Source: Bacilli bacterium
Lineage (GTDB): Bacteria; Bacillota_I; Bacilli_A; RFN20; CAG-826
Length of the DNA stretch: 53,626 bases
Assembly (NCBI GenBank): GCA_017447305.1
Contig: JAFSNY010000051.1
Span: forward strand, 1-53,626
Reading direction: 5' to 3'
Shown: positions 2,076 to 21,388 of the stretch, piece by piece
Layout: every line of letters starts with the position of its first letter
Position numbering within the stretch: the stretch's first letter is position 1
Notes under the pieces: model-generated
Database searches by the model: none
What the model was told of the DNA's origin: nothing
The model's input: the letters and a program-made list of their open reading frames with translations, nothing else
Position numbers and translations under genes: made by a program

Positions 2076-3812
2076 TTATGTCCCCACGCGAAAAACAAAT
2101 ATCAGGAATACAAAGATAATTATAATGAACATCGTGTAAATTAGCGTTGGAGTTAAAGTAATCCTTATTATTTTACCTTCCTTGCCATTTGTGCCTAAAG
2201 TCGCGCATACCGCAACAGTGTTGTTGACACAAATCATATTTCCAACAGCACCACCTATAACTTGCATAGCCACAATTAATACAGTAGGCAAACCAAGATT
2301 TAATGCTGATTGATATTGCAAGTTGGTGAACAGAGAGTTTGATACCGTGTTACTTCCAGAAACAAATGCTCCTAGTATTCCAATTATTGGAGCAAAAATG
2401 ACATATAAAACATTACCAACTTTGCTTAACGCATCAGCCATGTAAAAAATCATGCTTTTTGTGCTTTCTGAATCGACCGAATTGGATCCAGAATATCTAA
2501 GTATTTGTACAAGAGCTAAACCACTTACAATTGCAATCGCCGCGCCTATCAATTGTTTTCCGGTATTTTTCCATGCTCCAGCGAATTCTTTTCTTTTCAT
2601 TTTGTGAATAGGAATAATTAAAAATGAAACAAGGATGAAAATGGTACCCGGCAGCCACGCCCATTTGAATGTATACGACGTATTAGCAACACCAAATAAT
2701 TCCGGTATTTTAATGGCAAAAACATTTGATAAAACCCCATTACCATTTAAAGTTGATTTGATTGGTAAGAAAGGTAATCTTGTAACGACAAGAATCAACG
2801 CAATAATGACATATGGCAGCCATGCTCTAACAATGGACAGATTAGATTCTTTTGGATTGCTTGTTTTGGTTGTTGATTTCCATGATTCGTCCCATTCGGA
2901 ATAATTGGGAAAATTCCATTGCTTCTTCGGAATCAAGAACCCTTTTTTAGCGGCAAAAATAACAATTGGTAACCCAACAAGCGCCCCTAATAATGAAGGA
3001 AATTCAGGACCCAAAAAACAAGCGATTAAAACATACGGAACTGTAAAACATAAACCAGCAAAAAGAGCAAATGGCAATACCTCAAAAGCTGGTTTAAATG
3101 ATTTCTCTTTCGAAAAGAATTTACACATCACAGCCACCGCAATGAAAGGAATGAATGTGCCAACGATAGCGTGAGGTATCGACACCCAAGTTGATAAAGC
3201 CGAAGAATATGACTCGGTAGCAATATCACTTCCTAAACATGTTAATGATTGAATTGTAGGGGTTCCTATAGCTCCAAAACTAACTGCAGTGCTATCACAT
3301 ATTAAAGCCACAACCGCAGCAGCAATTGGCGGGAAACCTAAACTCACCAGTAGTGGAGCCGCTAAAGCCGCAGGAGTGCCAAATCCAGCCGCTCCTTCAA
3401 TAAACGAAGCAAACATCCATCCGATGATAATAGCTTGAATTCTAGCGTCTTTCGAAATTGACTTGAAACCATTATTAATCGAGTACGTGCCTCCACTTTC
3501 CTTTAACATATTCATTACAATAATTGCACCTGTTATCGTGATTAACACGTCAAAAGAATTAAGAATGCCGCTTAATGAATAAGCAAGAACCGAAATCCAA
3601 TCCATTTTCCAAAAGATTAGACCAAAGATACATGCAATTAGCCACGAAATAGGAAGCGAGATTTTTGCTGGTATATTGAAAACCATCATTAGTATCAAAC
3701 TAACTAGAAGCGGAAGGAAAGCTAAGATAGGTAATAAGACCAATTCCATAACAGTAACTATTCTACCATACAATTGTAAAAAAGTTTCAGTTTGTTTCTT
3801 ACTTTCTATCAT
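2076..3812 (-). CDS. lctP: L-lactate permease (LctP family)
   Basis: The 578-residue polytopic membrane protein has about a dozen or more hydrophobic segments and family-typical stretches: [25 protein letters not shown] near residue 140, then [10 protein letters not shown], and near the C-terminus [15 protein letters not shown] and VCVNN-like text in [21 protein letters not shown]. The family moves lactate, and in some members glycolate, with protons across the cytoplasmic membrane. Usual length is about 530-560. No clear ribosome site precedes ATG 3812; an internal start at residue 22 (MELVLLPIL) would give a more typical N-terminus. It is divergent from the GLUG gene at 3905. With an FAD/Fe-S/ETF dehydrogenase about 7 kb away, it could carry a 2-hydroxy acid for that system, but no operon links them. 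Confidence 0.93.
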
Positions 3813-6550: not shown

Positions 6551-6575
6551 TAATTGATTATTAAATTAAAAATTC

Positions 6576-6600
6576 AAAATCCAGTCTCGCACTGGGTTTT
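6576..6600 (+). terminator. Intrinsic terminator or attenuator between the two GLUG genes
   Basis: AAAATCCAG (6576-6584) pairs with CTGGGTTTT (6592-6600), with one G:U pair and a 7-base loop, and ends in a short T run. It lies 26 bases past the first GLUG stop and 25 before the next start. It may lower expression of the second gene rather than end transcription outright. Confidence 0.6.
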
Positions 6601-6624
6601 GTAACATTATAAGGAGGAATTGTC

Positions 6625-9600
6625 ATGAGTACTTCATGCAAAAAAAGAATCATTGTTAGTTCTATCGCTGTCGCTGGTTTTGCTGTTTCTTTAATATCTA
6701 TTAATGCAAATAAAAAGAATCCGTTTTCAGCTTTATTTGCTTCGCTATCACCATATTCATTGACGATAGATAGTGATGATTCAGTAACTGGAAGTGGAAC
6801 CTTTATTGCTAGAACTTCTTTTGGAAATGACATTAAATTTGCATATGAAGATGTTTCGGCTTCTGCTGGTAACTTCGGAGTTCTTAATGACGGTGGTTAT
6901 ATTTTAAATACGTATGAACTTGGCGCAGCGCATAGAAACGCTATTGGAAGCATTTTTTATGTCAATGTTTCTTTCAGTGGCAATTTACTCCTAGATTATT
7001 CTTGGGGCGGGGAAATATCTTCCAATGTGTACATTAGAGAAAATATAGAACTAGTTTCAGGAATAAATTACACATTTGAAAACGAACAACCTAACTATAT
7101 AAGGCTAAGAGCGGATGGCGATGTTACAATCTCCTCCATAAATATTAGTTACAATTGTGGCACAAATGAAACATATCCAGATATGTATATCGCCATTAAA
7201 AACGAAACGCAACTAAAGGCGTTTAGAGATTTAGTTAATGAAACACCTGATAGTTGCGCAGGGAAAATCGTCTATTTGACAGAAGATATAACATTGGAAA
7301 ATGTTGATTTTGGAGATCCAATAGGTAATGCGGATTCCGCTCCTTTTTCTGGAACATTTGATGGACTTGGACACACTATTACAAACTTAAAGAAAACAAC
7401 TGGTGGTTCTTTAGGGCTATTCTCTAGAGTCACAAAAGGAACAGTTAAAAATGTCAAAATGGCAAATATATCGATGATCGGGAACGCTCAAAGAACATCA
7501 GGCTTTGTTGCACGTGCGGTCGATGCGACGATAGAAAACATTGAGATACTTAGTGGATCCATCGCTGGAACAACTCAAAATGGTGGGGTTGTTGGTGTTG
7601 TTGTAGCAGGAAGTGACAAAACAGTTGTTAAAAATTGCATTAATCATGCTTCTCTCAACGCGACATCAGGAGGAGGCAATGGTGGCATTGTTGGATTTGT
7701 TCATAGTGGGACACTAGAAATTACAAACTGTCTCAATTATGGTAACATCACATCCTCAGGAAGCAATACAACTGGTGGTATTTTAGGTAGCTCATCTGGC
7801 ACTACAACCATCAATCACTCGTATAATCATGTTGACGCTGTTGTTCGAAATGGAAGTACAGTTGCATCCGCAAATAATGCAACGAAAGTTGGATATATCA
7901 ATAGTGGTTCATCGTTAGGTAATAACCTTGGGCTATTTAATGAAGCATTATCTACTGCATCAGAGTTAAGGACTTTTCTATCTGATAGTGCTTCGCGCGA
8001 AGGAGAAATCATCGTTATTTCTTCGGACATTGATTTGAATGATGTTCCAAATAATGATGACACCGATTATTCAAGAGCAAATATCTTCAAAGGAACATTA
8101 GATGGCCTTGGACATGTCATTAATAACTATAAGAGCAAGGCTGCTACAGCAGCGATGTTCAAGAGTGTAATAGGTGGCAGTATTACAAACTTTAAAATGA
8201 AAAATGTTAATGTTAATGCCACAACACAAAGAGGAGCTGCTGTTGCGTCAAGATTTGAAAGCAGTACGGTCAGTGAAATTGAAGTTATTTCAGGAAGCAT
8301 TGGAAGTGTTACACAAAATGCTGGAATTATTTCTGCAGCAACGGGAACAGTAACAATCAAAGACTGCATAAATAGGGCAAGCATTTCATCAACAGGAACA
8401 TCTACTGGTGGCATTGTTGCTGCTTCTGTTACCGCTGCAACTATCATTGATGTATATAACTGCGTCAACTATGGAACCATTACTGCTGGTGGCATTTCTA
8501 CTGGTGGAATCTTTGGCGGTTCAGTATCAAACGGAACAGGAAAAACAACTATCCACGATAATGTTAATGTTGGTGATGTAAATGGAACTGGCTACGTTGG
8601 TGGAATCATTGGTATCGCTAGAGAAAATGCTCATGCCGAATCATTATTGTCAAATTGTAAGAACTTTGGTAACGTCACTGGTTCAAGCGCAGTTTCAGCT
8701 GGCGGAATTGCCGGATTGACTAGAATTAATATTGAAGATTGTGAATGTTATAAAGATATTAATATTTCACTTAACAAAATTAGCGATAAAGCTGAAGATT
8801 TATCTGCTGTTGGCGGTGTTGTATCAGGCACTGCTGGTGGTGGCAATCATCGAGGATATATCGCCGGAACTACAGGAAACGATGCTACTGCATATGGAAG
8901 TCTTATTGATGACACTATCAGTGATTATGAAGAAAGTGTTGCTAATGCAAACACTTCAACAAATCAAGCTTATGGTAGAATTCAAACATTAAAAAATGGC
9001 CATACAATTCTCACTATGGCCAATAGAATTTCAATATCGGATAAAGAAGGTGTTGGGACATATAGCACTTTAAGAAATCGCGACACCGCGATTAGCAAAG
9101 GTGGCTGGGGAAATGATTATGTCCCTGGACACGAAGGTGACGACGATTACAAATTATGGCTAGCCAACATGGAACCATTAGTGCTACCTGATGGTAGATT
9201 GTTCATCTTCTATAGAACAGATTCTAAAGAAGCAACTAGTGGAGTTTATTATTCATCAATTAGAGCTATTGAATCACGTGATAATGGACAAACATGGTTA
9301 AATACAAGACACATTATTTTTGAAAACTATTCAACGGATTACTACAGTGATGGAAACATAAGAGGAGCGTATGAGCCATTTGCTATTCTTGATGGGGACA
9401 CATTGCAAATATTTATTGCCTTCGACGCTGCTTCTACTCGCGCAGGTGGTCTTGGTCCTAATAATTCAAGTTTTATTTGCACAGATTATTATCAAAATTT
9501 ATTAAGAATTCCTGTTGATATTTCTAATATGGGATTTGAGGTTGGTTCTGCAGCGATGGCGATTAAAGGCACATCAACATATATGAGACCTGGTATGCCG

Positions 9601-10137
9601 TCTGTTGTTAAATTAAACGATGGCAATTACGCTATGATATTAGAACACAATGGCTCAACTAGTGACTATGCAAATTATGCGATGAGAGTGGCTATTTCAT
9701 ATTCCCATGATTTAGTAACATGGACTGCCCCTCAGATTATTATCACTCCAGAAAATTCTGGAATATATGTAGGCACTACTAGATATTTATGTGGCGCACC
9801 TTATATTCAAATGTTAAACAATGGCAGAATCGCCGTATCATATACCACAAATGACTACTACAACTATAGTAGCGTTGATATGCGCGATAAGTGTGATCAA
9901 TCATATTTTAAGACTGTTGAACTCGCGATTAGTGATGACGTGGTCTCTTATGGCGATACACCAAACATGACTCATCAATCAGCAATTAATTATAACGATG
10001 ATACTGGGGCAAGATATGGTGGATGTGCAGTCATTGGTAATAAGATTATTCTCATTGCTAACGAATATACATTTAACGAGAGCTACTCAAGAGTCGTGGG
10101 AAGAGGAACAGTCTTCTCAACCGCAACGTATTACTAG
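6625..10137 (+). CDS. Exported two-block GLUG protein with C-terminal sialidase-fold (GH93-like) domain
   Basis: The 1170-residue protein has an N-terminal hydrophobic segment (about 10-30), the same beta-rich domain as its upstream neighbour (about 45-180), and two GLUG blocks (about 190-420 and 440-690). From about 735 to the end lies a beta-propeller domain. That domain shows ESRDNGQTWLNT, an Asp-box-like motif of sialidase folds, then RGAYEPFAIL, MRPGMPSVVKLNDGNYAMIL-E and SYSHDLVTWTAP. These recall GH93 exo-arabinanases, in which two Glu residues are catalytic. The two visible candidates are the Glu in AYEPF and the one after YAMIL. The lipoprotein at 22380 has the same GLUG + propeller pairing. 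A GGAGG site precedes ATG 6625. Exact substrate is not provable here. Confidence 0.85.
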   Translation: MSTSCKKRIIVSSIAVAGFAVSLISINANKKNPFSALFASLSPYSLTIDSDDSVTGSGTFIARTSFGNDIKFAYEDVSASAGNFGVLNDGGYILNTYELGAAHRNAIGSIFYVNVSFSGNLLLDYSWGGEISSNVYIRENIELVSGINYTFENEQPNYIRLRADGDVTISSINISYNCGTNETYPDMYIAIKNETQLKAFRDLVNETPDSCAGKIVYLTEDITLENVDFGDPIGNADSAPFSGTFDGLGHTITNLKKTTGGSLGLFSRVTKGTVKNVKMANISMIGNAQRTSGFVARAVDATIENIEILSGSIAGTTQNGGVVGVVVAGSDKTVVKNCINHASLNATSGGGNGGIVGFVHSGTLEITNCLNYGNITSSGSNTTGGILGSSSGTTTINHSYNHVDAVVRNGSTVASANNATKVGYINSGSSLGNNLGLFNEALSTASELRTFLSDSASREGEIIVISSDIDLNDVPNNDDTDYSRANIFKGTLDGLGHVINNYKSKAATAAMFKSVIGGSITNFKMKNVNVNATTQRGAAVASRFESSTVSEIEVISGSIGSVTQNAGIISAATGTVTIKDCINRASISSTGTSTGGIVAASVTAATIIDVYNCVNYGTITAGGISTGGIFGGSVSNGTGKTTIHDNVNVGDVNGTGYVGGIIGIARENAHAESLLSNCKNFGNVTGSSAVSAGGIAGLTRINIEDCECYKDINISLNKISDKAEDLSAVGGVVSGTAGGGNHRGYIAGTTGNDATAYGSLIDDTISDYEESVANANTSTNQAYGRIQTLKNGHTILTMANRISISDKEGVGTYSTLRNRDTAISKGGWGNDYVPGHEGDDDYKLWLANMEPLVLPDGRLFIFYRTDSKEATSGVYYSSIRAIESRDNGQTWLNTRHIIFENYSTDYYSDGNIRGAYEPFAILDGDTLQIFIAFDAASTRAGGLGPNNSSFICTDYYQNLLRIPVDISNMGFEVGSAAMAIKGTSTYMRPGMPSVVKLNDGNYAMILEHNGSTSDYANYAMRVAISYSHDLVTWTAPQIIITPENSGIYVGTTRYLCGAPYIQMLNNGRIAVSYTTNDYYNYSSVDMRDKCDQSYFKTVELAISDDVVSYGDTPNMTHQSAINYNDDTGARYGGCAVIGNKIILIANEYTFNESYSRVVGRGTVFSTATYY

Positions 10138-10209: not shown

Positions 10210-11607
10210 TTATTCTTCAATCGGATCAAATATTAAGTCTTCGTATTTAGCAAATTCTTTCAATACTCCGACGTAATTGCCAGGAACTTCACTCATGTGG
10301 TGGATATATGGTCCTTCAACGAGTTTGCGTTCGACTTTTGGTAAATCTTTAAACTTTGCCCACATGTAAGTGCCAAATGTCTTTGGTCCTTCACAAGTAT
10401 TAAATGAGCCAGCAAGCAAATAATAATTGCCTCTATCAACTTGGAAACGAGAAATAGTGTATTCCCCATCTCTTATTTTAAATGACGGTTTAGTGTTATA
10501 TAAGAATGGCTTAACGCTTGGATCCTTGTATTTTAGTGGGAATGGTCCGCAATGCCATAAAAGCTCGCTATTATCGTCGTTTGGGTTGCGGCATGTAAAT
10601 TCTCCTTGAATTGGTTTTTCTTTGCCTCTAGAGGCCGATAATAGCAAAACATTTGTGATTGTCATATGAATATCCCATTCACATGTTACGTAGATGTCTT
10701 TATCAGCGAGTAAACACATGGATAAACATGGATTGGCGCCCCAAGCAAGATTAATGCCAGTCCAGCATTCACTAGAAATAATATTACAATCGTTTGATTT
10801 GGCTAGATTCTCATAATAATAGACAATCGCTAACATTTTCTTTAAATAAACATCATCCAAAGAACCGACATCGAATATTTCTTTTAATTTAATTAAATCT
10901 TTATCTAACACATCTTGTTTTTCTTCCCAGATTTTACTTAAATCTTGGACAGCTTCTCCTAAATTAAAGATACGGATATCGATACCGAATTTTTCGCACA
11001 ATTCGAGTTCATTATACATGATAGATTTAAATGGTTTGATTCTTGTTCCAACTTGTAAAATTCTCATATTTTTAAAGTTTTTGACCATACAAGCAACGGA
11101 AAAGAAATCCCTTATTCCCTTATCGAAAACAGACGACTCTATATCGCAGTTCTCAATATAAGTAAACTTTATATTATTTCTCTTTAATTGTTTGCTCATA
11201 GCGAATAATCCGCATTGAGTATCGGTATATCTAATATCATCTTTAAAATTCCTGTCTCTTGGTCCCCAGAGAAGTGTTGGTAAATGAAGCTCTCTTGCAA
11301 CTAAACCAGCGCAGTTTTCCATACCAAAATTACAGTTGATAATAAATAAAGCATTGATTTTCTTCTCTTTAAAATATTCAACAACTTTTGGACAGTCGTC
11401 TTCTAAACAAAGTAAACCCTCTTCATTTAAGAAATCGATGTCGACAAACTCCGTAATTTCATCGGAGTAGTGGTCTTTAATATATTTAACAATTACCTTT
11501 TTATTATCGACTGCGTAATCACTCTGAAAAATACCAATTCTTTTTGGTGGTTCTTTAATCCATCTTCTGATTGGACATAATCCGATTCTAAGTTTGTAAT
11601 CTAACAT
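10210..11607 (-). CDS. L-fucose/L-arabinose isomerase-like protein
   Basis: This is a 465-residue cytoplasmic protein. The central part (FIINCNFGMENCAGLVARELHLPTLLWGPRD) and the C-terminal half (SSECWTGINLAWGANPCLSMCLLADKDIYVTCEWDIHMT, then GEFTCRNP and HCGPFPLKY) follow the layout of L-fucose isomerase C-terminal-like and arabinose-isomerase-fold proteins, in which Glu, Asp and His residues hold a divalent metal. Such enzymes interconvert aldoses and ketoses, but many relatives have no known substrate. It is shorter than FucI (about 590) and close to AraA (about 500). It is the last gene of the nine-gene operon, with GAAAGGAG before ATG 11607. Its product could feed the xylulokinase-type kinase. 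Confidence 0.72.
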   Translation of the reverse strand: MLDYKLRIGLCPIRRWIKEPPKRIGIFQSDYAVDNKKVIVKYIKDHYSDEITEFVDIDFLNEEGLLCLEDDCPKVVEYFKEKKINALFIINCNFGMENCAGLVARELHLPTLLWGPRDRNFKDDIRYTDTQCGLFAMSKQLKRNNIKFTYIENCDIESSVFDKGIRDFFSVACMVKNFKNMRILQVGTRIKPFKSIMYNELELCEKFGIDIRIFNLGEAVQDLSKIWEEKQDVLDKDLIKLKEIFDVGSLDDVYLKKMLAIVYYYENLAKSNDCNIISSECWTGINLAWGANPCLSMCLLADKDIYVTCEWDIHMTITNVLLLSASRGKEKPIQGEFTCRNPNDDNSELLWHCGPFPLKYKDPSVKPFLYNTKPSFKIRDGEYTISRFQVDRGNYYLLAGSFNTCEGPKTFGTYMWAKFKDLPKVERKLVEGPYIHHMSEVPGNYVGVLKEFAKYEDLIFDPIEE

Positions 11608-11613
11608 AAATAA

Positions 11614-12513
11614 TTAACTCCTTTCATTTAGGAAAGATATAACTTCATCTTTATTTGGAAGAGCAATTCTTGCTCCTGCTTTTTGACACTTTATCGCACT
11701 TGTTGCGCTTGCAAATCTAACGCATTCTTTAATAGACTTGCCTTCTAAATATGCAACCAAAAACGCCCCATGGAAAGTATCGCCTGCGCCATTTGAGTCA
11801 ACGCATTCAATCTTAAACGCATCATAATGATATTCTTTATCACCTTCTAGATACATCCCACCCTTGCTACCTTGGGTAACAACAAGCACCTTTGGATGAT
11901 ACATATGATTCAATTTTTTTATTGCATCAGAAACATTGCTCTGTTTGGTGAATTTTAAAGCGAATTCTTCACTAGGAATTAGGATATCGATATATGGCAT
12001 AATTATTTCGATATTAGGATAGACGCTTCCTGCATCTAATGACACTAAAACGCCATGCTTTTTTGCTTCCTTTATTGCTTCTAAAGCAATATTAAGATAA
12101 TTCCCATCTAAATGAAGAATGTCATAGTCTTTTATCATAGAAAAATCTAAAAGTGATGGATCATCAGGAACATTTCCTGCGTGAGCCACGCAGGTTCTAG
12201 TCCCACTTTTTTTAGCTAAGACGATATATGAGACAAAAGCGGTAGTGTTTTCTACCATTCTTATATTGCGTGTCTTAACTCCATATTGATCAAATTCGTT
12301 TATTAATCTCTCGCCACTGCTATCTTTACTTAACAATCCAAGATACTCGCTTTCTAATCCAAGTTTAGAAATGCATACTAAAGCATTGCTGACCGGACCA
12401 CCTCCAGAAGAGAAAATATTATTTGCTCTAATTTTAATATCTTCCTTAGGATATTCATCCATCTCAATCAGTGTGTCTAATACGCATGCACCGACGCCAA
12501 TTATTTTCTTCAT
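11614..12513 (-). CDS. PfkB-family sugar kinase (possible IolC-type)
   Basis: The 299-residue protein has both ribokinase/PfkB signatures. Near residue 36 is SSGGGPVSNALVCISKLG, the substrate-binding GG motif. Near residue 240 is DSNGAGDTFHGAFLVAYLEG, which holds the catalytic Asp and anion hole. It would phosphorylate a sugar or sugar acid in the cytoplasm with ATP. Its start overlaps the stop of the class II aldolase gene as ATGA, implying translational coupling. Beside IolB and that aldolase, the natural guess is 5-dehydro-2-deoxygluconate kinase (IolC), followed by cleavage by an IolJ-type aldolase. Ribokinase, fructokinase or tagatose-6-phosphate kinase activity cannot be excluded. Confidence 0.88.
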   Translation of the reverse strand: MKKIIGVGACVLDTLIEMDEYPKEDIKIRANNIFSSGGGPVSNALVCISKLGLESEYLGLLSKDSSGERLINEFDQYGVKTRNIRMVENTTAFVSYIVLAKKSGTRTCVAHAGNVPDDPSLLDFSMIKDYDILHLDGNYLNIALEAIKEAKKHGVLVSLDAGSVYPNIEIIMPYIDILIPSEEFALKFTKQSNVSDAIKKLNHMYHPKVLVVTQGSKGGMYLEGDKEYHYDAFKIECVDSNGAGDTFHGAFLVAYLEGKSIKECVRFASATSAIKCQKAGARIALPNKDEVISFLNERS

Positions 12514-13337
12514 GCTTTATTTCTACTACCTAAGACATCAATTTTTGACAAACAGAAAGCTTTAACTTTTTCAATTGGTTCTTTCATTATTAAATCAATA
12601 GCAATTTTATTTTTATCCTGTTCTTGAACAGATTCAATAAATGTGTAACATAAATCAGTTGAAAAATTCATTTTTCTGATTCCGGCCTGGACAGCCATCT
12701 TGATTTGATCATCAGGAACACCGCTTCCTCCGTGAAGAACGAGATGGACTCCTGTTGCTTCTTTGATTTCCTTTATTCTATCTATAGCTAAGACTGGCGC
12801 TTGTTTATATCTTCCGTGTGCAGTTCCAACTTGAACAGCCAAAGCAGTAACCCCGGTTTCTTTTACATATTTAACAGCGTCCTTAACTTCGGTGAATTGA
12901 TTAGTAACACCATCAATAGCCTTGCCGATATGTCCTAATTCTCCTTCGACTTGAACATTGACAAGATTGCACATATCGACAACCTCTTTGGTTCCTTTAA
13001 TGTTTTCTTCTAAATCCAATGTTGAATAATCGATCATAATTCCAGTCATACCATTTCTTAAAGCAATAGTAACGGCGTCTTTTCCGCTCCCGTGATCGAG
13101 GTGTAAACAAACTGGAACGGTTGCTCTTTTTGCTGCTTCTAAAACAATTGGACATACGTAATCAGAATTTCCGCTTGTAACTAGTCTTGAATATAGTTGC
13201 ATGATTACAGGCGACCTGGCTTCTTCCGCTGCTTGAAGGACACCCATGACTGTTTCCAAATTGTAAACATTAAAAGCAGGGACGGCATATCCATCTTTTT
13301 CCGCTAAATCAAGAATTCTTTTTAAATCGTATAGCAT
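12510..13337 (-). CDS. Class II fructose-bisphosphate aldolase family (possible IolJ/GatY-type)
   Basis: This 275-residue Zn-dependent aldolase starts MLYDLKRILDLAEKDGYAVPAFNVYN. It has the metal site text CLHLDHGSGKD (near residue 78), QVEGELGHIGK (near 130), VGTAHGRYK (near 175) and VLHGGSGVPD (near 205), which carry the His/Asp/Glu ligands and the phosphate-binding GGSG loop. I start at 13337 because AAAGGAG stands before it and the protein then begins as the family does; reading further upstream adds a non-family extension. The family cleaves phosphorylated ketoses or keto acids to DHAP plus an aldehyde. With IolB and a PfkB kinase beside it, DKG-6-phosphate (giving malonic semialdehyde) is one candidate; fructose- or tagatose-bisphosphate are the others. 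Confidence 0.9.
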   Translation of the reverse strand: MLYDLKRILDLAEKDGYAVPAFNVYNLETVMGVLQAAEEARSPVIMQLYSRLVTSGNSDYVCPIVLEAAKRATVPVCLHLDHGSGKDAVTIALRNGMTGIMIDYSTLDLEENIKGTKEVVDMCNLVNVQVEGELGHIGKAIDGVTNQFTEVKDAVKYVKETGVTALAVQVGTAHGRYKQAPVLAIDRIKEIKEATGVHLVLHGGSGVPDDQIKMAVQAGIRKMNFSTDLCYTFIESVQEQDKNKIAIDLIMKEPIEKVKAFCLSKIDVLGSRNKA

Positions 13338-13351
13338 ACATAGTTTCTCCT

Positions 13352-14719
13352 TTATAAATCTTTTATATCCATAACAATTCCATAATCTGAAAAACAAAAT
13401 ATTTGTTCTTTTTTGTTATTATTAATGGCAATGATAGTGGTGGATTTATTTATTCCCACAACATGTTGAATAGCACCGCTTGTTCCTAAGGTGATACAAA
13501 CTTTAGGAGTAATGGTGATACCTGTTAATCCAACCTGAGTTTCATACGGGAGGAAATTAGAATCGGCAAGAGGTCTTGTTGAATATATCTTGGCATGATA
13601 TTTGTTTGCTAAATTCAGAATTTTATCAAAATGATTTATCGCTCCCCTTCCTATTGTAATAGCAACATCTTCCTTGGTTTCGCTAGTTGCTTTAATGGTT
13701 GCCATAGAAATTGAAGAATTGGAAACGATGGTTGCAATAATATTTCCTCCTAAGGCCGGTCGTATCATCACAAATCTATTATTACGATAATCAAATGATA
13801 CACAATCAGCACATAGTCCTTGATTCATTCTCATAGCGACCCGTGAGGCTAGCGGCTTATATTTTTCATTTTCTTCCCATAGGATGATTGGTGGTTTTAA
13901 TTCTTCAATCTTTTCAATTATTTCTTGAATAGTGAGGTTATCGACTTTAATTTCAATTGCTTTTTCGCCAAAACGAGTGGCGATATCATATAGTTTTCCT
14001 ACGTAGTAAATAATTGGGGCTCTATTGATTTCTTCTTTTCTTTCGGTGATGTTTTTTGTTAATGAATGAGAAACGACCTCATCTAATTGTTCATAATTAA
14101 TAAATTCGCATATACGACGATCATTCTCGTTGGTGTAAATTTCAATAACTCTTGTCGGCGAAGCTATTAATCCAACTTCATCCTTTGAAAATCCTAAATA
14201 ATTATTATCAACAATCTTAACTTCTTTCTTTTTTGAGAACATTGATGGGGAAGACAGTAATTTAAACTTTTCAAAAGTGACTATTTGATGACTGCTAAGT
14301 TGAACTTTATCAGTATTTCTAAGCAAAGCCACATTATTATCAAGCGACATAACTCTATCGACCAAGGTATAACCAGTGAGCTCTGAAAGCATTAAAGGAA
14401 CTTGCCCTGTATTCCCATCAAGGCTCTCTCTTCCTGCAAAAATCAAATCTGGCTTCTCTTTTTCTAAGAATCTTCCTAATATCTTCGCAGTAACAATGGT
14501 ATCGCTGCCTGCATACATATTATCGCTAATGATAATCGCGTTTGCGCCTAATCTAGTGAGGTTTTCTAGCGTTTCAATTTGAGATAGAGGAGCCATAGCA
14601 ACAAGAGTGACTTCACTTTCAGGAAAAGATAATGCGCATTCGATCGCGCATTCATCAAAAGGAGAAATATCCCCTTTATATATCTTTAACAAAACGAAGA
14701 TCCTTTTATTCTTTTCCAT
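13352..14719 (-). CDS. Single-chain electron transfer flavoprotein (EtfB-EtfA fusion)
   Basis: The 455-residue protein joins both ETF subunits. Residues about 1-190 look like EtfB: FVLLKIYKGDISPFDECAIE, then LTRLGANAIIISDNMYAGSDT and PDLIFAGRESLDGNTGQVPLML, the AMP/FAD nucleotide-binding pattern. From about 225 the EtfA pattern follows. It ends in the FAD domain with TRPLADSNFLPYETQVGLTG, ITLGTSGAIQHVVGINKSTTIIAIN and CFSDYGIVMDI, matching the conserved SGAIQH-G and DYGIVGD signatures. Separate subunits are normally about 260 and 320-340 residues, so the chain is a shortened fusion. ATG 14719 overlaps the kinase stop by 14 bases. It likely takes electrons from the FAD oxidase / Fe-S pair in the same operon. 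Whether it bifurcates electrons is unknown. Confidence 0.9.
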   Translation of the reverse strand: MEKNKRIFVLLKIYKGDISPFDECAIECALSFPESEVTLVAMAPLSQIETLENLTRLGANAIIISDNMYAGSDTIVTAKILGRFLEKEKPDLIFAGRESLDGNTGQVPLMLSELTGYTLVDRVMSLDNNVALLRNTDKVQLSSHQIVTFEKFKLLSSPSMFSKKKEVKIVDNNYLGFSKDEVGLIASPTRVIEIYTNENDRRICEFINYEQLDEVVSHSLTKNITERKEEINRAPIIYYVGKLYDIATRFGEKAIEIKVDNLTIQEIIEKIEELKPPIILWEENEKYKPLASRVAMRMNQGLCADCVSFDYRNNRFVMIRPALGGNIIATIVSNSSISMATIKATSETKEDVAITIGRGAINHFDKILNLANKYHAKIYSTRPLADSNFLPYETQVGLTGITITPKVCITLGTSGAIQHVVGINKSTTIIAINNNKKEQIFCFSDYGIVMDIKDL

Positions 14720-16169
14720 AATAATTGACAATGAAATCTGCAATTTTCTTGTAATTCTTGAATATCTCCATATATTTATCGTGATTATCCATATTTGGAG
14801 TTATAACGCTAACAATCTTTTGTGTTTTTCTAAGAGCGCTTTCTAAACTATTAAATCTTTTTGAAGCCACCAAAGCACATAAACAATCGCCAAATGATGA
14901 ATCATTATTTTCGGTGACATAAAGTTTGATACCTAAGACATCAGAAACAATTTGTCTCCAGAGTGGTGATTTGCTTCCTCCGCCCAAAACAAACGCTTCT
15001 TTTGAAAGTGGTAATCCGGCTTTATTTAGATATGAGTAACAATCATATAGTGAGTATGCGACACCCTCTAATAATGCTCTTATAAAATGACCCTTACTAT
15101 GTAAAGAAGATATTCCAAAATAACTGCCCTTAATTAATGGATTTCCATATGGAGTCAATTCTCCCATTAAATATGGAAGGAAGATTAATCCATCACTTCC
15201 TAGAGGAACATCTTTTGCCATTTTATCCAAATCTTTGTAATTTCCTCCAAAAGTATCTCTAAACCAACGAAGCGAGGCGGCGCATGATTTAGTGCCGCTT
15301 CCTGGATAATATAAGCCCTTATTAAGGTGAGAATAATTAATAATATTTTTATCTGGATAAACTTTATCGGTGACTAGACATATTCTTCCTGCAGTGGCGA
15401 GTTTTAAGGTCATATCGCCTTTTTTAACTCCACCTGACGCTAATACTTCCATAGCAGTATCGGTTGAACCACAGATGACTTTTGTTTTAGTTGATAATCC
15501 GCTTAGTTTGCTTGCTTCTTCAGATACATGTCCTACTTCATCAAGAGGAGAAATGATTTTAGGCATCATCTCTATTGTTAAATGAGCAAGCTTTAATAGT
15601 GTTTGGTCCCACGTTTTTTTATCTACATCAAACAGCATGCTTCCTTCTGCTTCAATATAATCGGTAACTAAACCAGGGCAGAACATGTGCCTTACATAAT
15701 CTTTTGCAAAAATAACATGTTTGATGCGTTTATATAAATCTGGTTCGTTGTTATGTAAAAACATCAACTCAGGAAGGGTCCAAATCGTATCTGGCAAATG
15801 GTTGCACTTAAAGAAAATGTATTCTCTATATTCTTCTTGCAACAATTTTGTTTCTTTGACGCTTCTAGTATCTGTCCAGTATATTGAATCGCAAACAACA
15901 TTTTCTTTTTCATCTAATAATACTGCGGTATGCGTGGCAGCGCTAAAGCACAAACATTCTATTTCTTTAGGATTAATGCCCTTATTAAGAATTGCTTTGA
16001 TGTTAATTAAAGCAGCATTAAACCAATCGATAGGTTTTTGTGTTGCTAACCCGTTTTCTTTATAAATCGTGGGATATTCACTAGATGCAGTGAATAATAC
16101 ATTTCCCTTTTCATTAACTAATGTGGCCTTTGATGAACCGCCACCAAAATCAATTCCTAAATAATACAT
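14706..16169 (-). CDS. FGGY-family carbohydrate kinase, xylulokinase-like
   Basis: The 487-residue protein starts YYLGIDFGGGSSKATLVNEKG, the phosphate-1 loop of the ASKHA fold. It continues with CLCFSAATHTAVLLDEKENV, IYWTDTRS (the family W-x-D-x-R element with substrate-contact Asp), KVICGSTDTAMEVLASGGV and the adenosine-region text VLGGGSKSPLWRQIVSDVLG near residue 400. Length and motif order fit xylulokinase (XylB, about 490-510). It phosphorylates a ketose with ATP. Partners in the operon are an aldose epimerase just upstream and an isomerase-like protein downstream, a set that would take an aldose to a ketose phosphate. Ribulose or another ketose is possible. Confidence 0.88.
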   Translation of the reverse strand: MYYLGIDFGGGSSKATLVNEKGNVLFTASSEYPTIYKENGLATQKPIDWFNAALINIKAILNKGINPKEIECLCFSAATHTAVLLDEKENVVCDSIYWTDTRSVKETKLLQEEYREYIFFKCNHLPDTIWTLPELMFLHNNEPDLYKRIKHVIFAKDYVRHMFCPGLVTDYIEAEGSMLFDVDKKTWDQTLLKLAHLTIEMMPKIISPLDEVGHVSEEASKLSGLSTKTKVICGSTDTAMEVLASGGVKKGDMTLKLATAGRICLVTDKVYPDKNIINYSHLNKGLYYPGSGTKSCAASLRWFRDTFGGNYKDLDKMAKDVPLGSDGLIFLPYLMGELTPYGNPLIKGSYFGISSLHSKGHFIRALLEGVAYSLYDCYSYLNKAGLPLSKEAFVLGGGSKSPLWRQIVSDVLGIKLYVTENNDSSFGDCLCALVASKRFNSLESALRKTQKIVSVITPNMDNHDKYMEIFKNYKKIADFIVNYYGKE

Positions 16170-16171
16170 AT

Positions 16172-17026
16172 CTAATCCACCTTAATTGAATGATAGAAGT
16201 GGTATGATTTGCTTGACTCTAACTTTATAATGTTGTCTTTTTTAGTAATGTCCTTTGGACTATCGATATAATCTCCTACCGCAGTCCAAGGCTCAATACA
16301 AATGTATTTTGCGCCAATTTTAGTCCAAGTAACGATATTTGAAGCATGAGGAAATTCTACCGTTAGTATCTTTCCTTTGCTTACATGCATCAAAGAAAGT
16401 TTTCTTGAATTGACATTCTGAAAAACCAAAGCATCTACCTTATAATCATCATACCTTAGAGGTAGGTGATTATTAAATGAGGAAAAATCTTTTAATTTGT
16501 GAGAAAGAAGACTACCAACCACTTCGTTAGACATTAATGCCTCGTCTTTTTCAAATTCTATATAATAGTTTTCAAAATCGTCATCTAGAAGATATCCTTC
16601 GTGACTTCCGATGGAAAAATACATCGAATCCGTACCTAAATTGATGACTTTATAATCAATTTCCAGTTTATCGGTAAGAATATATTTAACAATGATTTGA
16701 AACTTGAATGGGAAAGATTTTCTTGTTTCTTCGTTTCCTAGAAAACTAAATATTGCATAATCTGTTCCGGAAGAAAGAATATTGAAATCTTTAAATCTTA
16801 TGAATCCGTGCTTTGTCATTGGATAATTTTTTCCGTTGATGGAATATTCTTCATCAATAAGGCCGCTGCAAACAGGGAAAAGAATTGGGGCGTGAGCTTT
16901 CCAATACTTTTCATCTCCAATCCAAATATATTCTTTGTTGTTTTTCTTGAGACTTAGAAGTTCTGCTCCTCTAAGAGTGATAGTGGCTTCTAAATTCTTA
17001 TTTCTAATAACTATTTGACGATCCAT
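16172..17026 (-). CDS. Aldose 1-epimerase family protein (LacX-like)
   Basis: The 284-residue cytoplasmic protein has the galactose-mutarotase fold pattern: ATITLRGAELLSLKKNNKEYIW at the start, WKAHAPILFPVCSGL, then FSIGSHEGYLL with the likely catalytic His, and TVEFPHASNIVTWT...YICIEPW with the likely catalytic Glu. The usual family text around the His is GGHPAF; here it is GSHEGY. Such enzymes interconvert alpha and beta anomers of aldoses. Its start overlaps the iolB stop by 16 bases and the kinase follows two bases after its own stop, so the three genes are tightly coupled. Confidence 0.85.
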   Translation of the reverse strand: MDRQIVIRNKNLEATITLRGAELLSLKKNNKEYIWIGDEKYWKAHAPILFPVCSGLIDEEYSINGKNYPMTKHGFIRFKDFNILSSGTDYAIFSFLGNEETRKSFPFKFQIIVKYILTDKLEIDYKVINLGTDSMYFSIGSHEGYLLDDDFENYYIEFEKDEALMSNEVVGSLLSHKLKDFSSFNNHLPLRYDDYKVDALVFQNVNSRKLSLMHVSKGKILTVEFPHASNIVTWTKIGAKYICIEPWTAVGDYIDSPKDITKKDNIIKLESSKSYHFYHSIKVD

Positions 17027-17802
17027 TTATGGCATTCCTCACTTGTAGAAAGTAGACCTCTACGTGGTCCAGCCATAACCCATAAGGTATAGTTTTTGTA
17101 TCCTGGAGCGACTGCCATTGGGTGATATCCACGTGGAATTTCAACAGCGTCACCATGTTCTATACGATAAGCTTCATTAATGGTTTTATCACTGGTATAC
17201 ACCATTTGAATACCAAATCCCTGTGGCTTATCAAATTCATAGTAATAGATTTCATCTAATGCCCCTTCGACACCATCTTCGACATCATGCTTATGTGGTG
17301 GGAAAGAGGCCCAGAATCCATTTTCAACCCAATACTCACCAATGTATAAATAATTGGCTTTCATCGTTTCTGGGAATGTGAAAGCAACATCTCTAACAAA
17401 TGTCTCTTTGCCAAATCTAGCCATCTTAACTTCATCGTGGCGAATTAATTGCGGAGGATAAAGTTTTGGAGCAGGTGCTTTACAAACCGCTATACGAACA
17501 TCTCCTTCAACAGCTTTAACCATGAATGGAGTGTTTTTTCCAACATAGACAGATTCTGCACCAACGATTTCCATTGTGGATTTTCGATATCCAACTTTTT
17601 CAAATTTGAATTCTTTTCCAAAGACATCACATTTTCCTTCTAAAACGATAAGGACAAATTCTTTTTCAACTTCATCGATGACAAATTCTTGTTTATCTTT
17701 GAGTTTAAGCATATCCATTTCCGCGAAGGTAAGTGGAGAATTACGAGAAGTAATCATCCTCTCGTAACCATATTTTTCATGATATGTTTTCTTTAAATTC
17801 AT
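17011..17802 (-). CDS. iolB: 5-deoxy-glucuronate isomerase (IolB)
   Basis: This 263-residue protein is a two-cupin-domain isomerase. It is recognisable by WASFPPHKHDVEDG (metal-binding His and Glu residues near position 165), DEIYYYEFDKPQGFGIQMVY, then DAVEIPRGYHPMAVAPGY and LWVMAGPRRGL near the C-terminus. In myo-inositol breakdown IolB turns 5-deoxy-D-glucuronate into 5-dehydro-2-deoxy-D-gluconate, the substrate of the PfkB-family kinase IolC. Start 17802 is chosen because AAGGAGG stands seven bases before it. The other inositol genes iolG, iolE, iolD and iolA are not in this window, yet a PfkB kinase and class II aldolase are. It either acts on an intermediate made elsewhere or has a changed substrate. 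Confidence 0.92.
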   Translation of the reverse strand: MNLKKTYHEKYGYERMITSRNSPLTFAEMDMLKLKDKQEFVIDEVEKEFVLIVLEGKCDVFGKEFKFEKVGYRKSTMEIVGAESVYVGKNTPFMVKAVEGDVRIAVCKAPAPKLYPPQLIRHDEVKMARFGKETFVRDVAFTFPETMKANYLYIGEYWVENGFWASFPPHKHDVEDGVEGALDEIYYYEFDKPQGFGIQMVYTSDKTINEAYRIEHGDAVEIPRGYHPMAVAPGYKNYTLWVMAGPRRGLLSTSEECHKWIVK

Positions 17803-17812
17803 AATTTCCTCC

Positions 17813-18910
17813 TTATGCAAGATTATCTAAAACCATCTCTTCGACAGTAATGACTTTATATCCTTCCGGAACATTTTCTTTTAACAAGACATGTTCATCT
17901 GGGTTTTCTGTAACAAGTGTTTTGCAGCCCATATTCATTGCATTCATCCAGCGATTTTTTGCCACAAGTTTCATGGTGTTTGGCATATACTCGTTCATGA
18001 TTAATTGACCAGCAAGGTTTGCTTCTTTATTAATGAGAAGCATATCTTTAACAATCCCAACTTTCTCAATTAATTGTCTTCCGCTTGTAACATCATCAAG
18101 TTCGCGGGCGTAAGCAAAATTGTCTTGTAATGAATATTCAATATCAGATTTTCTAACCTTAAGTTTATCATTATTGATTAAATCTAATAATTCTTCATTT
18201 AATCCAACAACTCTTGCTTTTAAGGTGATTCCCCATTCTTTCCATTCGTGACGAATAAATGATAGTTCGACAGGGTTGTAAACAACTACTTTCTCGTATT
18301 TATTCAATGCTTCAGCACATTTCCTTGCACATTCAACTGTTTCTTTTGTTTTTCCTGTTAAATACCATAAGGAATAGCCTGTATTATCCGCAGATTTGTC
18401 TAAACAAATTGATTCAGATCCTTTGCTTAATAATTTCAGGGTCTTTTCCAAGGATTCAGCATCTTTATTGACAGCCATTTCGCCAGCAAGTAAAAGTACT
18501 TTTCCATCGGAATATTCTTCTTGCATTTTTTGTAATAATTGTTGTGCTCCTTTGTCCATTTTTCCGAAAACGGCGCCACAAGATGAATAATTATCTAAAA
18601 GTTTACGAATATATTCTGGCTCCTTGCCTTCTAATATAATTTGGGTCTTGACTTCTTGAATGAAAAGTCGTGGATCCCATCCTGTTTTACAGTTATTAGC
18701 ACAAGCACCACACAATGAGCATTCATACATGTTAGTGGCGATATCTTCTAGTTTTTCTGTTCCTCTAATGACATATGAAACCATTAACGCTCTTGCTCTG
18801 GCATTATTTCTTTCTTGTCCATCAGCGTTCCCAATTGGACAAACGTGACGGCACATCCAACAAAATCTACATGACTCTGCTTGTTGTCTAGCTTTATCTG
18901 AAATTTTCAT
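17813..18910 (-). CDS. Fe-S oxidoreductase subunit with two 4Fe-4S clusters
   Basis: The 365-residue protein opens with two ferredoxin-type cysteine sets: CRFCWMCRHVCPIG (residues about 16-29) and CSLCGACANNCKTG (about 64-77). The rest resembles the C-terminal half of glycolate-oxidase (GlcF) or heterodisulfide-reductase-like subunits, with YSSCGAVFGK near 110, but the usual CCG motifs are largely missing. It should pass electrons between the FAD oxidase encoded just upstream (18929, 18 bases away) and the ETF protein farther down the operon. It is cytoplasmic, with no membrane segment. AGGAGG precedes its start, as it does that of iolB. Confidence 0.88.
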   Translation of the reverse strand: MKISDKARQQAESCRFCWMCRHVCPIGNADGQERNNARARALMVSYVIRGTEKLEDIATNMYECSLCGACANNCKTGWDPRLFIQEVKTQIILEGKEPEYIRKLLDNYSSCGAVFGKMDKGAQQLLQKMQEEYSDGKVLLLAGEMAVNKDAESLEKTLKLLSKGSESICLDKSADNTGYSLWYLTGKTKETVECARKCAEALNKYEKVVVYNPVELSFIRHEWKEWGITLKARVVGLNEELLDLINNDKLKVRKSDIEYSLQDNFAYARELDDVTSGRQLIEKVGIVKDMLLINKEANLAGQLIMNEYMPNTMKLVAKNRWMNAMNMGCKTLVTENPDEHVLLKENVPEGYKVITVEEMVLDNLA

Positions 18911-18928
18911 CGTCTTTTCCTCCTTAGA

Positions 18929-20347
18929 TTAAAGACCAAGTTTAAATGGATTCATAATTCCATTTGGATCTAAAGATTTTTTAAGTCCTTCAAATACTTG
19001 CATAGCAGGACCATATTGCTCTTTCATTAATCGACCTAATTTAATGCCAACACCATGATGGTCATTAACGACACCACCATGTGCCAAGGCAGTTCTGACA
19101 CCAGTTGTCCAAACTTCATTATGAAGTTTCATGGCTTCGATAGGATCTTGTGGTGGGTTGTCACAAATAAATCTATCGTAAATCATTGCTCCCCATTCGT
19201 ACCAGTGAGAGAAGTGAGCAATAAATTTAATGTTTGGATATTTGGTTTCGATAGCCTTTTTCATCGCCCAATAGATTTCTTCTATTTTGTCGTATGGAGC
19301 GATGGTGTCCATGGTTCCAAACATTTGTGGCAAATCCATCATGTGACCAGGATAGAAGAATGTAATCTTTTCTTCCCACCATTTTTCGCCATATTCACTG
19401 CCTAAGTCTTCAGCACCATATTTAGCGAATGTTTCTAAAAGAATCTTTTCTTCGACATCGACTAATTCTTTTTTGCCTTCATAAGCAATATTCATGAACG
19501 CACCAGGTTTAGCAACGCCAACAATCTTTTTAATTAATGAAGCTGTTTCCGCATCATCGTATAGACGCATGACAGAAGGTTTAAATATTTGAAGCAATTC
19601 TCTGCTTGCTTCAAATGCTGCGTGCATGTTTTTGAATAAGAATCCCCTGAATCTTCTAACTTCAGGCTGAATATAAATTCTTATTTGAGCTTTGGTGATA
19701 ATGCCGAGAGTTCCTTCAGAACCAATGAAGATTTGGTTCAAATCAGGACCGGCAGCATGTTTAGGAGCGCTTGATGTATTGATGATATCTCCATTTGGTA
19801 ATACAACTTCCATTTGGAGAACCATATCATCGATTTTGCCGTATTTAGTGGAAACGACACCGATGCCTCGATGTGCCAAGAAACCACCAACGGTGGAACA
19901 TGTTAACGAAGATGGGAAATGCATAGTGGAATAGCCTCTTTCATTAGCGGCCCACTCAATGTGTTTGTAGATAGCGCCTGCGCCACATTCGATATACATT
20001 CCTTGTTCGTTGATATCGTAAATTTGATTCATTCTTTTGGTGTCAAGAAGAATACCTCCACAAACAGGAATGGCTCCTCCTTGTGTGCCTCCTCCTCCGC
20101 CCCAAGTGGTCACAGGAATTTTATAATAATTTGCAATCTTTAAAACTTTTGAGACTTCTTGAGCGTCCTTTGGAGAAACAATGAAATCACCCATAGGCAT
20201 TTCCCTTCCTCTATCAGCCCACATTCTTGAAAGCCAAAAGTAATCAACACTATGTGCAACCTTATCTACTAACTTCGTGGAACAGTTTTCTTTTCCTACT
20301 GCATCTTCAAGTTCGGTAAGGATTTGTGTAAATAAAAATTCATTCAT
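18929..20347 (-). CDS. FAD-linked oxidase of the VAO/PCMH family (GlcD / alkyl-DHAP synthase-like)
   Basis: The 472-residue protein has the FAD-binding PCMH domain: IVSPKDAQEVSKVLKIANYY, then TWGGGGGTQGGAIPVCGGI near residue 85, FPSSLTCSTVGGFLAHRGIGVVS and FIGSEGTLGIITKAQIRIY. The C-terminal FAD oxidase domain follows, ending KKSLDPNGIMNPFKLG. A VVNDHHGVGIKLG motif near residue 430 carries the His pair seen in alkylglycerone-phosphate synthases and some 2-hydroxyacid dehydrogenases. It probably oxidises a hydroxy acid or sugar acid and hands electrons to the Fe-S and ETF proteins. The start is ATG 20347: AGGAG stands 11 bases before it, while a GTG 12 bases upstream would overlap that site. 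It is the first gene of the operon. Confidence 0.88.
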   Translation of the reverse strand: MNEFLFTQILTELEDAVGKENCSTKLVDKVAHSVDYFWLSRMWADRGREMPMGDFIVSPKDAQEVSKVLKIANYYKIPVTTWGGGGGTQGGAIPVCGGILLDTKRMNQIYDINEQGMYIECGAGAIYKHIEWAANERGYSTMHFPSSLTCSTVGGFLAHRGIGVVSTKYGKIDDMVLQMEVVLPNGDIINTSSAPKHAAGPDLNQIFIGSEGTLGIITKAQIRIYIQPEVRRFRGFLFKNMHAAFEASRELLQIFKPSVMRLYDDAETASLIKKIVGVAKPGAFMNIAYEGKKELVDVEEKILLETFAKYGAEDLGSEYGEKWWEEKITFFYPGHMMDLPQMFGTMDTIAPYDKIEEIYWAMKKAIETKYPNIKFIAHFSHWYEWGAMIYDRFICDNPPQDPIEAMKLHNEVWTTGVRTALAHGGVVNDHHGVGIKLGRLMKEQYGPAMQVFEGLKKSLDPNGIMNPFKLGL

Positions 20348-20377
20348 ATCAAAAGACACTCCTATAGTTCTACTATA

Positions 20378-20406
20378 ATTCTATAAAACATTAAAAATAT
20401 TTTCAA
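20378..20406 (-). promoter_or_regulatory. Promoter of the nine-gene catabolic operon
   Basis: Read on the minus strand, TTGAAA (20406-20401) and TAGAAT (20383-20378) are separated by 17 bases. The expected start is near 20371, about 24 bases before ATG 20347, leaving room for the AGGAG site. No other promoter is obvious within the operon, whose genes overlap or abut. Confidence 0.65.
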
Positions 20407-20444
20407 TATTAAAGGTTAAAAAATGAAAAATATGATAAAAAAGT

Positions 20445-20461
20445 AAAAATAATTTTCATAA
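20445..20461. promoter_or_regulatory. 17-base motif shared by three promoter regions, candidate RpiR operator
   Basis: AAAAATAATTTTCATAA occurs here between the operon and the divergent rpiR-family gene. It recurs exactly at 42796-42812 and with one change at 26428-26444. The core AAAATWATTTTC is close to an inverted repeat, which suits a dimeric regulator. The RpiR protein encoded beside it is the obvious candidate binder. The A+T-rich setting is the main caveat. Confidence 0.45.
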
Positions 20462-20539
20462 TTTCCAAGCAAATTTTCTTGTTTAAAAACGAGATAAAAA
20501 ATGCAAAAATATTAATAGAAACGATAAGGAAAATGAAAA

Positions 20540-21388
20540 ATGGGAAAACTTTTAATAAATATTAAATCAGCTTATCAAAAAATGAGCAAAACTGAAAAAA
20601 AGATTGCTGATTATATTTTACATAACCAAAATAATGTCCCAATGACAATTACAGAACTTGCTAAGGCGACAGGAACTAGCGAAGCTACTATTGTAAGATT
20701 CGCAAAAAAGATTGGATGTAACGGATATCAACAATTAAAAATCATGCTCGCTAAGGAAGAGCATCACATCGTTAACCGCTCTATTGACGAAAAAGATGAT
20801 TTTATTCAGATTTTTAGCAAAATTAGTGATGATGTCTATTCCACGCTTATTAAAACGAGAGAAATTAATACTGATGAAGAATTTGAATACGCCTATAACC
20901 TTATTTCTAAGGCCAAGGAAATCATTGTTATTGGTGTTGGCAATTCCTATGCTATTTCACTAGATCTTTATCATAAATTATTAAGATTAGGTTTTAATGT
21001 TGCTTCGGTTCCTGATTCTCACTTTCAACTTATCGAAATGTCTAAAGCTAAGCCTTCAACACTTGTCATTGCAATCAGCCATTCAGGATGTACAAAAGAA
21101 ATTATTGATTCCGTTACACTAGCTAAAGAAAGTAACGCAAAAGCGATGACAATTACAAGTGATAGGAAATCACCATTAGCAAAAAAATGCGATTTATCTT
21201 TATGCACAGTTTCTGAAGAAATTAATTATCGTATGTTAGGTCTATCTTCTAGGTATGGTCAATTGGCAATCATTGATACTTTATATACCTACATCGCTAT
21301 GAAGAATCCAGATTCACAAAAGACCATCGAAAAAATTGAAGATAACGTCTTATTGAATCGTGTTCAGCCAAAGAAAAAGAATAATTGA
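20540..21388 (+). CDS. RpiR-family transcriptional regulator
   Basis: The 282-residue protein has an N-terminal RpiR HTH domain (about 1-80: YQKMSKTEKKIADYILHNQ, then MTITELAKATGTSEATIVRFAKKIGCNGYQQLKIML) and a SIS sugar-phosphate-binding domain (about 120-260: IIVIGVGNSYAISLDLYHKL, then LVIAISHSGCTKEIIDSV and AMTITSDRKSPLAKKCD). Members sense phosphosugars and control sugar or amino-sugar genes. It diverges from the operon that begins at 20347, so control of that operon by a phosphorylated intermediate is the natural reading. Shared motifs at 20445, 26428 and 42796 suggest a wider regulon. A purine-rich AAGGAAAA site lies before ATG 20540. Confidence 0.95.
   Translation: MGKLLINIKSAYQKMSKTEKKIADYILHNQNNVPMTITELAKATGTSEATIVRFAKKIGCNGYQQLKIMLAKEEHHIVNRSIDEKDDFIQIFSKISDDVYSTLIKTREINTDEEFEYAYNLISKAKEIIVIGVGNSYAISLDLYHKLLRLGFNVASVPDSHFQLIEMSKAKPSTLVIAISHSGCTKEIIDSVTLAKESNAKAMTITSDRKSPLAKKCDLSLCTVSEEINYRMLGLSSRYGQLAIIDTLYTYIAMKNPDSQKTIEKIEDNVLLNRVQPKKKNN

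Follow-up and report, generated by a model that had tools for sequence, protein, structure and literature searches.

A rare gut-bacterial operon joining an IolB-like cupin, an FGGY kinase and an ETF-linked flavoprotein, possibly for the catabolism of a sugar or sugar acid

Contig JAFSNY010000051.1 of a Bacilli bacterium (assembly GCA_017447305.1), analysed as a single stretch of 53,626 nucleotides that we call the window, carries at positions 10210-20347 a cassette of nine tightly packed minus-strand genes. Our tentative view is that it is a conserved operon, rare among anaerobic gut Firmicutes, by which they break down a free reducing sugar or a sugar acid. The enzyme families are known ones in a new combination, and we found no description of a cassette with these genes in the open-access literature. 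Its genes encode, in the direction of transcription:

18929..20347, minus strand: flavin adenine dinucleotide (FAD) flavoprotein, like alkyl-dihydroxyacetone phosphate (DHAP) synthase (Pfam PF01565 and PF02913)
17813..18910, minus strand: iron-sulfur (Fe-S) subunit with two [4Fe-4S] motifs (PF13183)
17011..17802, minus strand: IolB-family cupin isomerase of a cassette-specific subfamily (TIGR04378)
16172..17026, minus strand: aldose 1-epimerase (mutarotase) family protein (PF01263)
14706..16169, minus strand: FGGY carbohydrate kinase, XylB-like (XylB TIGR01312, 346 bits, under the cut-off of 380)
13352..14719, minus strand: single-chain electron-transfer flavoprotein (ETF), a fusion of EtfB and EtfA (PF01012 and PF00766)
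12510..13337, minus strand: class II aldolase without the arginine for a second phosphate (PF01116)
11614..12513, minus strand: PfkB-family sugar kinase (PF00294)
10210..11607, minus strand: sugar isomerase of the L-arabinose/L-fucose isomerase fold (Foldseek; SftI NF048012, 75.5 bits, cut-off 700)

Gene starts were refined from the position of the Shine-Dalgarno sequence and the length of the homologues, which leaves gaps of +18 to -16 nucleotides between neighbouring genes and a good ribosome-binding site at most of them. With such gaps the nine genes are read as one operon; a preliminary description of this DNA had said so too, and all nine proteins lie where it had placed them.

Relatives of the cassette were collected as loci (contig stretches, L-numbers) and genomes (G-numbers), nearly all of them fragmented metagenome-assembled genomes (MAGs) with uncertain taxonomic labels; L028, for one, is assigned to Cloacimonadota but its gene neighbourhood resembles that of Bacilli. 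Orthologues of the isomerase (73-91% identity) occur in 16 gut-MAG loci, 14 of which carry further cassette genes in the same stretch. In the other two, L029 and L035, the isomerase stands without them, and the genome of L035 has the core of the cassette at L092. The set recurs in both Bacilli and Clostridia, its composition conserved and its gene order nearly so, which argues that it did not come together by chance. The cassette is rare: 3 of 146 genomes from the family and 2 of 392 drawn from the phylum have close orthologues, and a search of viral contigs gave no relatives.

Comparison of distant loci separates a core from its usual companions. The smallest unit across lineages is the FGGY kinase with the flavoprotein, the Fe-S subunit, the ETF and IolB; the isomerase, mutarotase, PfkB kinase and aldolase are usual yet separable additions, so that PfkB, the aldolase and the fucose-isomerase-like gene, all rightly reported for the window, fall outside the invariant part. 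L091 (genome G542) holds only the five core components and DUF4867, a family to which we return below. G558 has flavoprotein-Fe-S and FGGY-EtfB-EtfA-IolB at two fitting contig ends (L083 and L115, the junction being our inference), and in G848 EtfB-EtfA-IolB stands at a contig end (L117). The isomerase is not beside the core in L090, L092 and L094, although a relative of it is present in 9 of the 10 core genomes tested (in G579 and G558 only at 37-39% identity). The divergent L084 of G622 (flavoprotein 51%, IolB 36% and FGGY kinase 43% identical) has no ETF within the stretch. Among 396 genomes of one Clostridial order, a flavoprotein of at least 50% identity is found in eight, all within the ten that have a strong IolB (199 bits or more), a co-occurrence whose hypergeometric p of ~3e-15 is overstated because related genomes are not independent. 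Two further features were seen at these loci: a protein of ~670 amino acids encoded between IolB and DUF4867 in L034 (4530-6545) and L036 (2778-4796), with no Pfam or NCBIfam match for the L034 copy, and genes for a NagA-like deacetylase and a NagB-like deaminase that adjoin three Clostridial cassettes (L036, 13996-16060; L092, 12430-14690; L094, 2052-4030).

No other cassette protein is as conserved as the flavoprotein (81-95% identity outside L084); identities drift to 36-73% for the Fe-S subunit and 33-60% for the ETF. It was previously described as an FAD oxidase of the vanillyl-alcohol oxidase (VAO) type, and its FAD_binding_4/FAD-oxidase_C fold agrees with this, but its nearest solved structure is alkyl-DHAP synthase (AGPS; 2uuu/4bby, 6.6e-43), followed by D-lactate dehydrogenase (1.5e-35) and LctD (1.5e-28). 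It carries HFSHWYEWGAMIY and NDHHGVG, and among cassette flavoproteins HFSHWYEWG and NDHHGVG are invariant. At those places the 2-hydroxyacid dehydrogenases of the LDH/D2HGDH type carry HxGDGNxH and EHGVG, and this GlcD/LctD-type metal-site motif is not matched by the cassette protein. Its AlphaFold2 model was poor (mean predicted local distance difference test, pLDDT, of 52) and was not used. The eight cluster cysteines of the Fe-S subunit are present in all 20 cassette proteins wherever they are covered, while its other cysteines are not conserved; the ETF is split into EtfB and EtfA in G558 and G848. With such Fe-S and ETF partners, the flavoprotein is presumably a dehydrogenase or reductase and not a redox-neutral synthase.

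The FGGY kinase keeps company with a flavoprotein outside the cassette as well. All of its 15 best plasmid matches, many of them from sister strains, lie beside an FAD oxidoreductase gene, and the pair occurs in the Alphaproteobacteria Mesorhizobium, Roseibium/Labrenzia, Shinella, Sinorhizobium and Paracoccus. Kinase and flavoprotein therefore probably work on intermediates that follow one another. In Mesorhizobium, the product of the next gene (L050, 19452-20576) shows weak similarity to the Fe-S subunit (E 1.8e-4, from a search of a small set) and lacks nearly all eight cluster cysteines. The Alphaproteobacterial pairs of “xylulokinase” and FAD oxidoreductase (L050, 16495-20576; L098; L100; L101) come with a LacI regulator, an ABC transporter and often GldA and a short-chain dehydrogenase/reductase (SDR); they look like a polyol or sugar pathway, and we found no paper that establishes their function. 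As for the core itself, it is possible, if rather unlikely, that it performs an undescribed sugar-phosphate redox step, in which the kinase product would be oxidised next to the phosphate, or reductively deoxygenated via the ETF, and the cupin would isomerise the product.

The IolB-like cupin reaches 219.8 bits with TIGR04378, above the curated cut-off of 205, and an IolB above this cut-off was found in 15 of the 17 genomes searched. Its conserved His176, His178, Glu190 and His233 are retained, which makes isomerase chemistry credible. The cassette IolBs nevertheless form a clade of their own, separated by a fully supported branch (100/99) from six plasmid-borne canonical IolBs, five of which adjoin iol genes, and they have lost residues invariant in those six: Arg206 (in QRVY) is replaced in 22 of 23 cassette IolBs, and Arg136 and Asn247 in all. 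Clade and residues together make 5-deoxyglucuronate doubtful as the substrate of the cassette enzyme. Since 9 of the 10 strong IolB genes in the Clostridial order lie within a cassette, or in a genome holding cassette parts, and are not tied to an inositol operon, their automatic inositol annotation is probably wrong.

At the position of the T-[DE]-x-R motif of bisphosphate aldolases, the cassette aldolase has TDLC (TELC in YdjI, TECL in IolJ). The arginine of this motif, which contacts the second phosphate in bisphosphate aldolases, is thus absent, so the substrate is probably a ketose-1-phosphate with a non-phosphorylated tail, and DHAP one of the products. That the enzyme might be an ordinary bisphosphate aldolase, as the preliminary description had allowed, does not fit this picture. 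The solved structures nearest to it are those of YdjI (6ofu, the closest) and of KbaY-type aldolases, and it has an SDRLV/YSRLV stretch in common with IolJ of Priestia. The PfkB kinase reaches 145 bits with a ribokinase model and 92.7 bits with that of IolC (TIGR04382), whose cut-off is 300.

The only family-model match of the isomerase is that to sulfoquinovose isomerase (SftI/SqvD), and a phmmer search of the PDB with it gave none. Its AlphaFold2 model (pLDDT 77) was matched by Foldseek to L-arabinose isomerase 4r1q (template-modelling score, TM, 0.78; E 4.7e-20), and Glu280, Glu310, His352 and His436, invariant in 14 orthologues, are by analogy candidate metal ligands. The mutarotase slot holds a PF01263 protein in the window, as described before, with relatives in L023/L027 and L028, but DUF4867/SqvB (PF16161) in several Clostridia (L032 and L034, with relatives in L036, L039 and L091), and some loci have neither. 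That either of two unrelated families can fill the slot points to a reducing sugar as the input. DUF4867 lies mostly beside PF02952 isomerases and FGGY kinases, and has been proposed as a mutarotase or ring-opener, although the activity was not detected (PMC11968277).

In the window, L027 and L028 the cassette lies beside lipoproteins of the glycoside hydrolase family 43 (GH43) type, with a sugar ABC transporter near it in the window and L027. The flanks of the operon in the window (3905-10137, 22380-24668 and 26562-47128) encode large surface proteins of lipoprotein, BNR or GH43 type and a sugar ABC transporter; the sialidase-like protein at 22380-24668 has no PDB relative. A GH127-like gene, recognised by eye, follows the cassette in L030/L031, and a GH43 gene lies near the isomerase of G712. 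Near the Clostridial loci there are GH2 GalA-like, GH31, GH127-like, rhamnosidase-type and NagA/NagB-like genes, none of them common to all. Replacement of a uronate pathway was also considered and set aside, as UxaC was found in 11 of the 19 cassette genomes but not in that of the window, with no clear pattern of exclusion.

Two more genes, one of them only often present, belong to the neighbourhood of the nine:

20540..21388, plus strand, divergent: RpiR/MurR-family regulator with helix-turn-helix and SIS domains (PF01418 and PF01380)
2076..3812, minus strand: LctP-family hydroxyacid permease (TIGR00795, 354.5 bits, cut-off 341)

The regulator holds the same divergent position in many cassette loci and is separated from the operon by an AT-rich divergent promoter region of ~190 nucleotides. 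Inverted repeats within it (20360-20539; ATGAAAA...TTTTCAT and AATATTTTCAATATT) are possible RpiR sites; a promoter scan gave fewer promoter-like sites than shuffled sequence and was uninformative. The permease also adjoins the cassette in L026 and L028 (88% and 74% identical to the copy in the window), which makes it a probable accessory transporter and suggests that a small hydroxyacid is taken in or sent out.

Put together, these families suggest the following route. The sugar would undergo ring-opening or anomer exchange by the mutarotase or DUF4867, conversion from aldose to ketose by the metal isomerase of the AraA/FucI fold, and phosphorylation of the ketose by the FGGY kinase. The AGPS-like flavoprotein would then carry out a two-electron redox reaction, with electrons passing via the two-cluster Fe-S protein and the ETF, and the IolB-like cupin would move the new carbonyl by aldehyde/ketone isomerisation. 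PfkB would yield a ketose-1-phosphate, which the class II aldolase would cleave into DHAP and a short unphosphorylated aldehyde or semialdehyde, and the resulting acid may exit through the LctP permease.

Several points weigh against this single catabolic route. Two kinases and an aldolase that seems to release an unphosphorylated aldehyde are awkward for one linear path, and the sequence does not tell oxidation from NADH-driven reduction through the ETF. The nearby glycosidases, which differ between lineages (GH43, GH127-like, GH2, GH31), do not name the substrate, and the genomes that hold the cassette are nearly all fragmented. PfkB and aldolase are not beside the core in G542 and G558, and G542 is also without the isomerase, so that the cassette could consist of two partly independent modules.

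This last possibility leads to an alternative that we consider unlikely, in which one operon would serve the two halves of one glycan, for instance a uronate-pentose disaccharide. Mutarotase, isomerase and FGGY kinase would feed an aldose into the pentose phosphate pathway, and flavoprotein/Fe-S/ETF, IolB, PfkB and aldolase would handle a sugar acid. The combination of DUF4867, isomerase and FGGY kinase is indeed a known aldose/ketose one (PMC11968277), GH43 genes flank the Bacilli cassettes, and isomerase and mutarotase are both away from the core in L090, L092 and L094. However, in L091 and L115, which lack aldolase and isomerase, the FGGY kinase is still found with flavoprotein and IolB, and in Alphaproteobacteria it forms a pair with the flavoprotein; this places it with the redox core rather than with the isomerase.

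A new entry into the lower inositol pathway, from true 5-deoxyglucuronate through 2-deoxy-5-keto-gluconate (DKG) and DKG-6-phosphate to DHAP and malonic semialdehyde, is more doubtful still. It had been the leading idea of the preliminary description, and the conserved, pathway-like unit, the score of IolB and the IolJ-like features of the aldolase (no arginine, SDRLV/YSRLV stretch) speak for it. The constant partners of IolB, however, are the FGGY kinase and the redox proteins and not PfkB and aldolase, without which the IolB core is found; the changed clade and residues of IolB and a PfkB kinase that is not IolC-like by score likewise disfavour this order of steps. The absence of iolG, iolE, iolD and iolA from the operon extends to whole genomes: by curated family models at their cut-offs, IolD was not found in 17 genomes including that of the window (92% complete), nor IolE or IolA in 19, and for IolG the 19 genomes gave just Gfo/Idh relatives below the cut-off. 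No iol operon was found elsewhere in the genome of the window. An anaerobe whose use of inositol has been characterised, Anaerostipes, has retained iolBCDEGJ (PMC8355322).

D-apiose, or a branched pectin sugar related to it, is an improbable substrate, for which the cassette would take the place of the transketolase/aldolase ending of apiose catabolism. In G558 and G579 the 35-39% relatives of the isomerase have a split transketolase and an FGGY kinase as neighbours, resembling the AptAB apiose clusters (pathway in PMC13001218), but such identity fits a different sugar too, the cassette is without the AptAB transketolase, and an apiosidase was not seen next to it. The two clusters themselves (L109, 5415-10052; L110, 3999-10160, the latter, of G558, adding an apiosidase-domain protein) are each a probable D-apiose cluster.

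Least probable of all is a variant of sulfoglycolysis of the sulfo-Embden-Meyerhof-Parnas 2 (sulfo-EMP2) kind, in which isomerase, kinase and aldolase would turn sulfoquinovose or a related sugar into DHAP and sulfolactaldehyde: SftI is the closest named family of the isomerase, the aldolase is of class II (PF01116) as in SqiA, and Clostridial versions carry DUF4867/SqvB (PMC9594981), but the isomerase stays far below its cut-off, the kinase is PfkB where the sulfofructose (SF) kinase SqiK is defined as PfkA-type (PF00365), IolB, FGGY kinase and flavoprotein/ETF have no place in the reviewed routes (PMC9594981), and the operon holds no sulfoquinovosidase and no sulfolactaldehyde reductase or dehydrogenase, which were not searched for genome-wide.

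The catabolic operon that we tentatively prefer is a compact candidate pathway, not named so far, whose genes are strongly co-inherited in gut bacteria of herbivores, chickens and the rumen. It offers a defined enzyme set in which ETF-linked oxidation or reduction of sugars can be examined, and the AGPS-like flavoproteins that accompany FGGY kinases in several phyla gain a first functional context from it. If the core does perform an undescribed sugar-phosphate redox step, it would be a new entry route to central metabolism in gut anaerobes.

Among known systems, the lower iol pathway (IolB-IolC-IolJ) has in common with the cassette the IolB family, a kinase of the PfkB family and a class II aldolase in which the second-phosphate arginine is missing; it differs in its kinase and in IolG, IolE, IolD and IolA, and the cassette IolB, of another clade with changed residues, is tied to the FGGY kinase and the flavoprotein/Fe-S/ETF complex. 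The sulfo-EMP2 and sulfo-transaldolase (sulfo-TAL) routes (SqvD/SftI, SqvB/SftX, SqiK, SqiA) share the broad isomerase family, DUF4867 at several loci and the class II aldolase, but have a PfkA kinase, whereas the cassette adds IolB, the FGGY kinase and the redox complex. AGPS, to which the flavoprotein is closer than to any other solved structure (2uuu, E 6.6e-43), is a redox-neutral ether-lipid synthase, unlike a protein with Fe-S and ETF partners. LctBCD and GlcDEF share the VAO fold and Fe-S or ETF partners, yet the cassette flavoprotein is nearer to AGPS and has other motifs at the metal-site positions. Finally, the Alphaproteobacterial LacI-FAD-xylulokinase-ABC-GldA-SDR clusters share the kinase-flavoprotein pair with the cassette and, unlike it, contain no IolB, PfkB, aldolase or isomerase.

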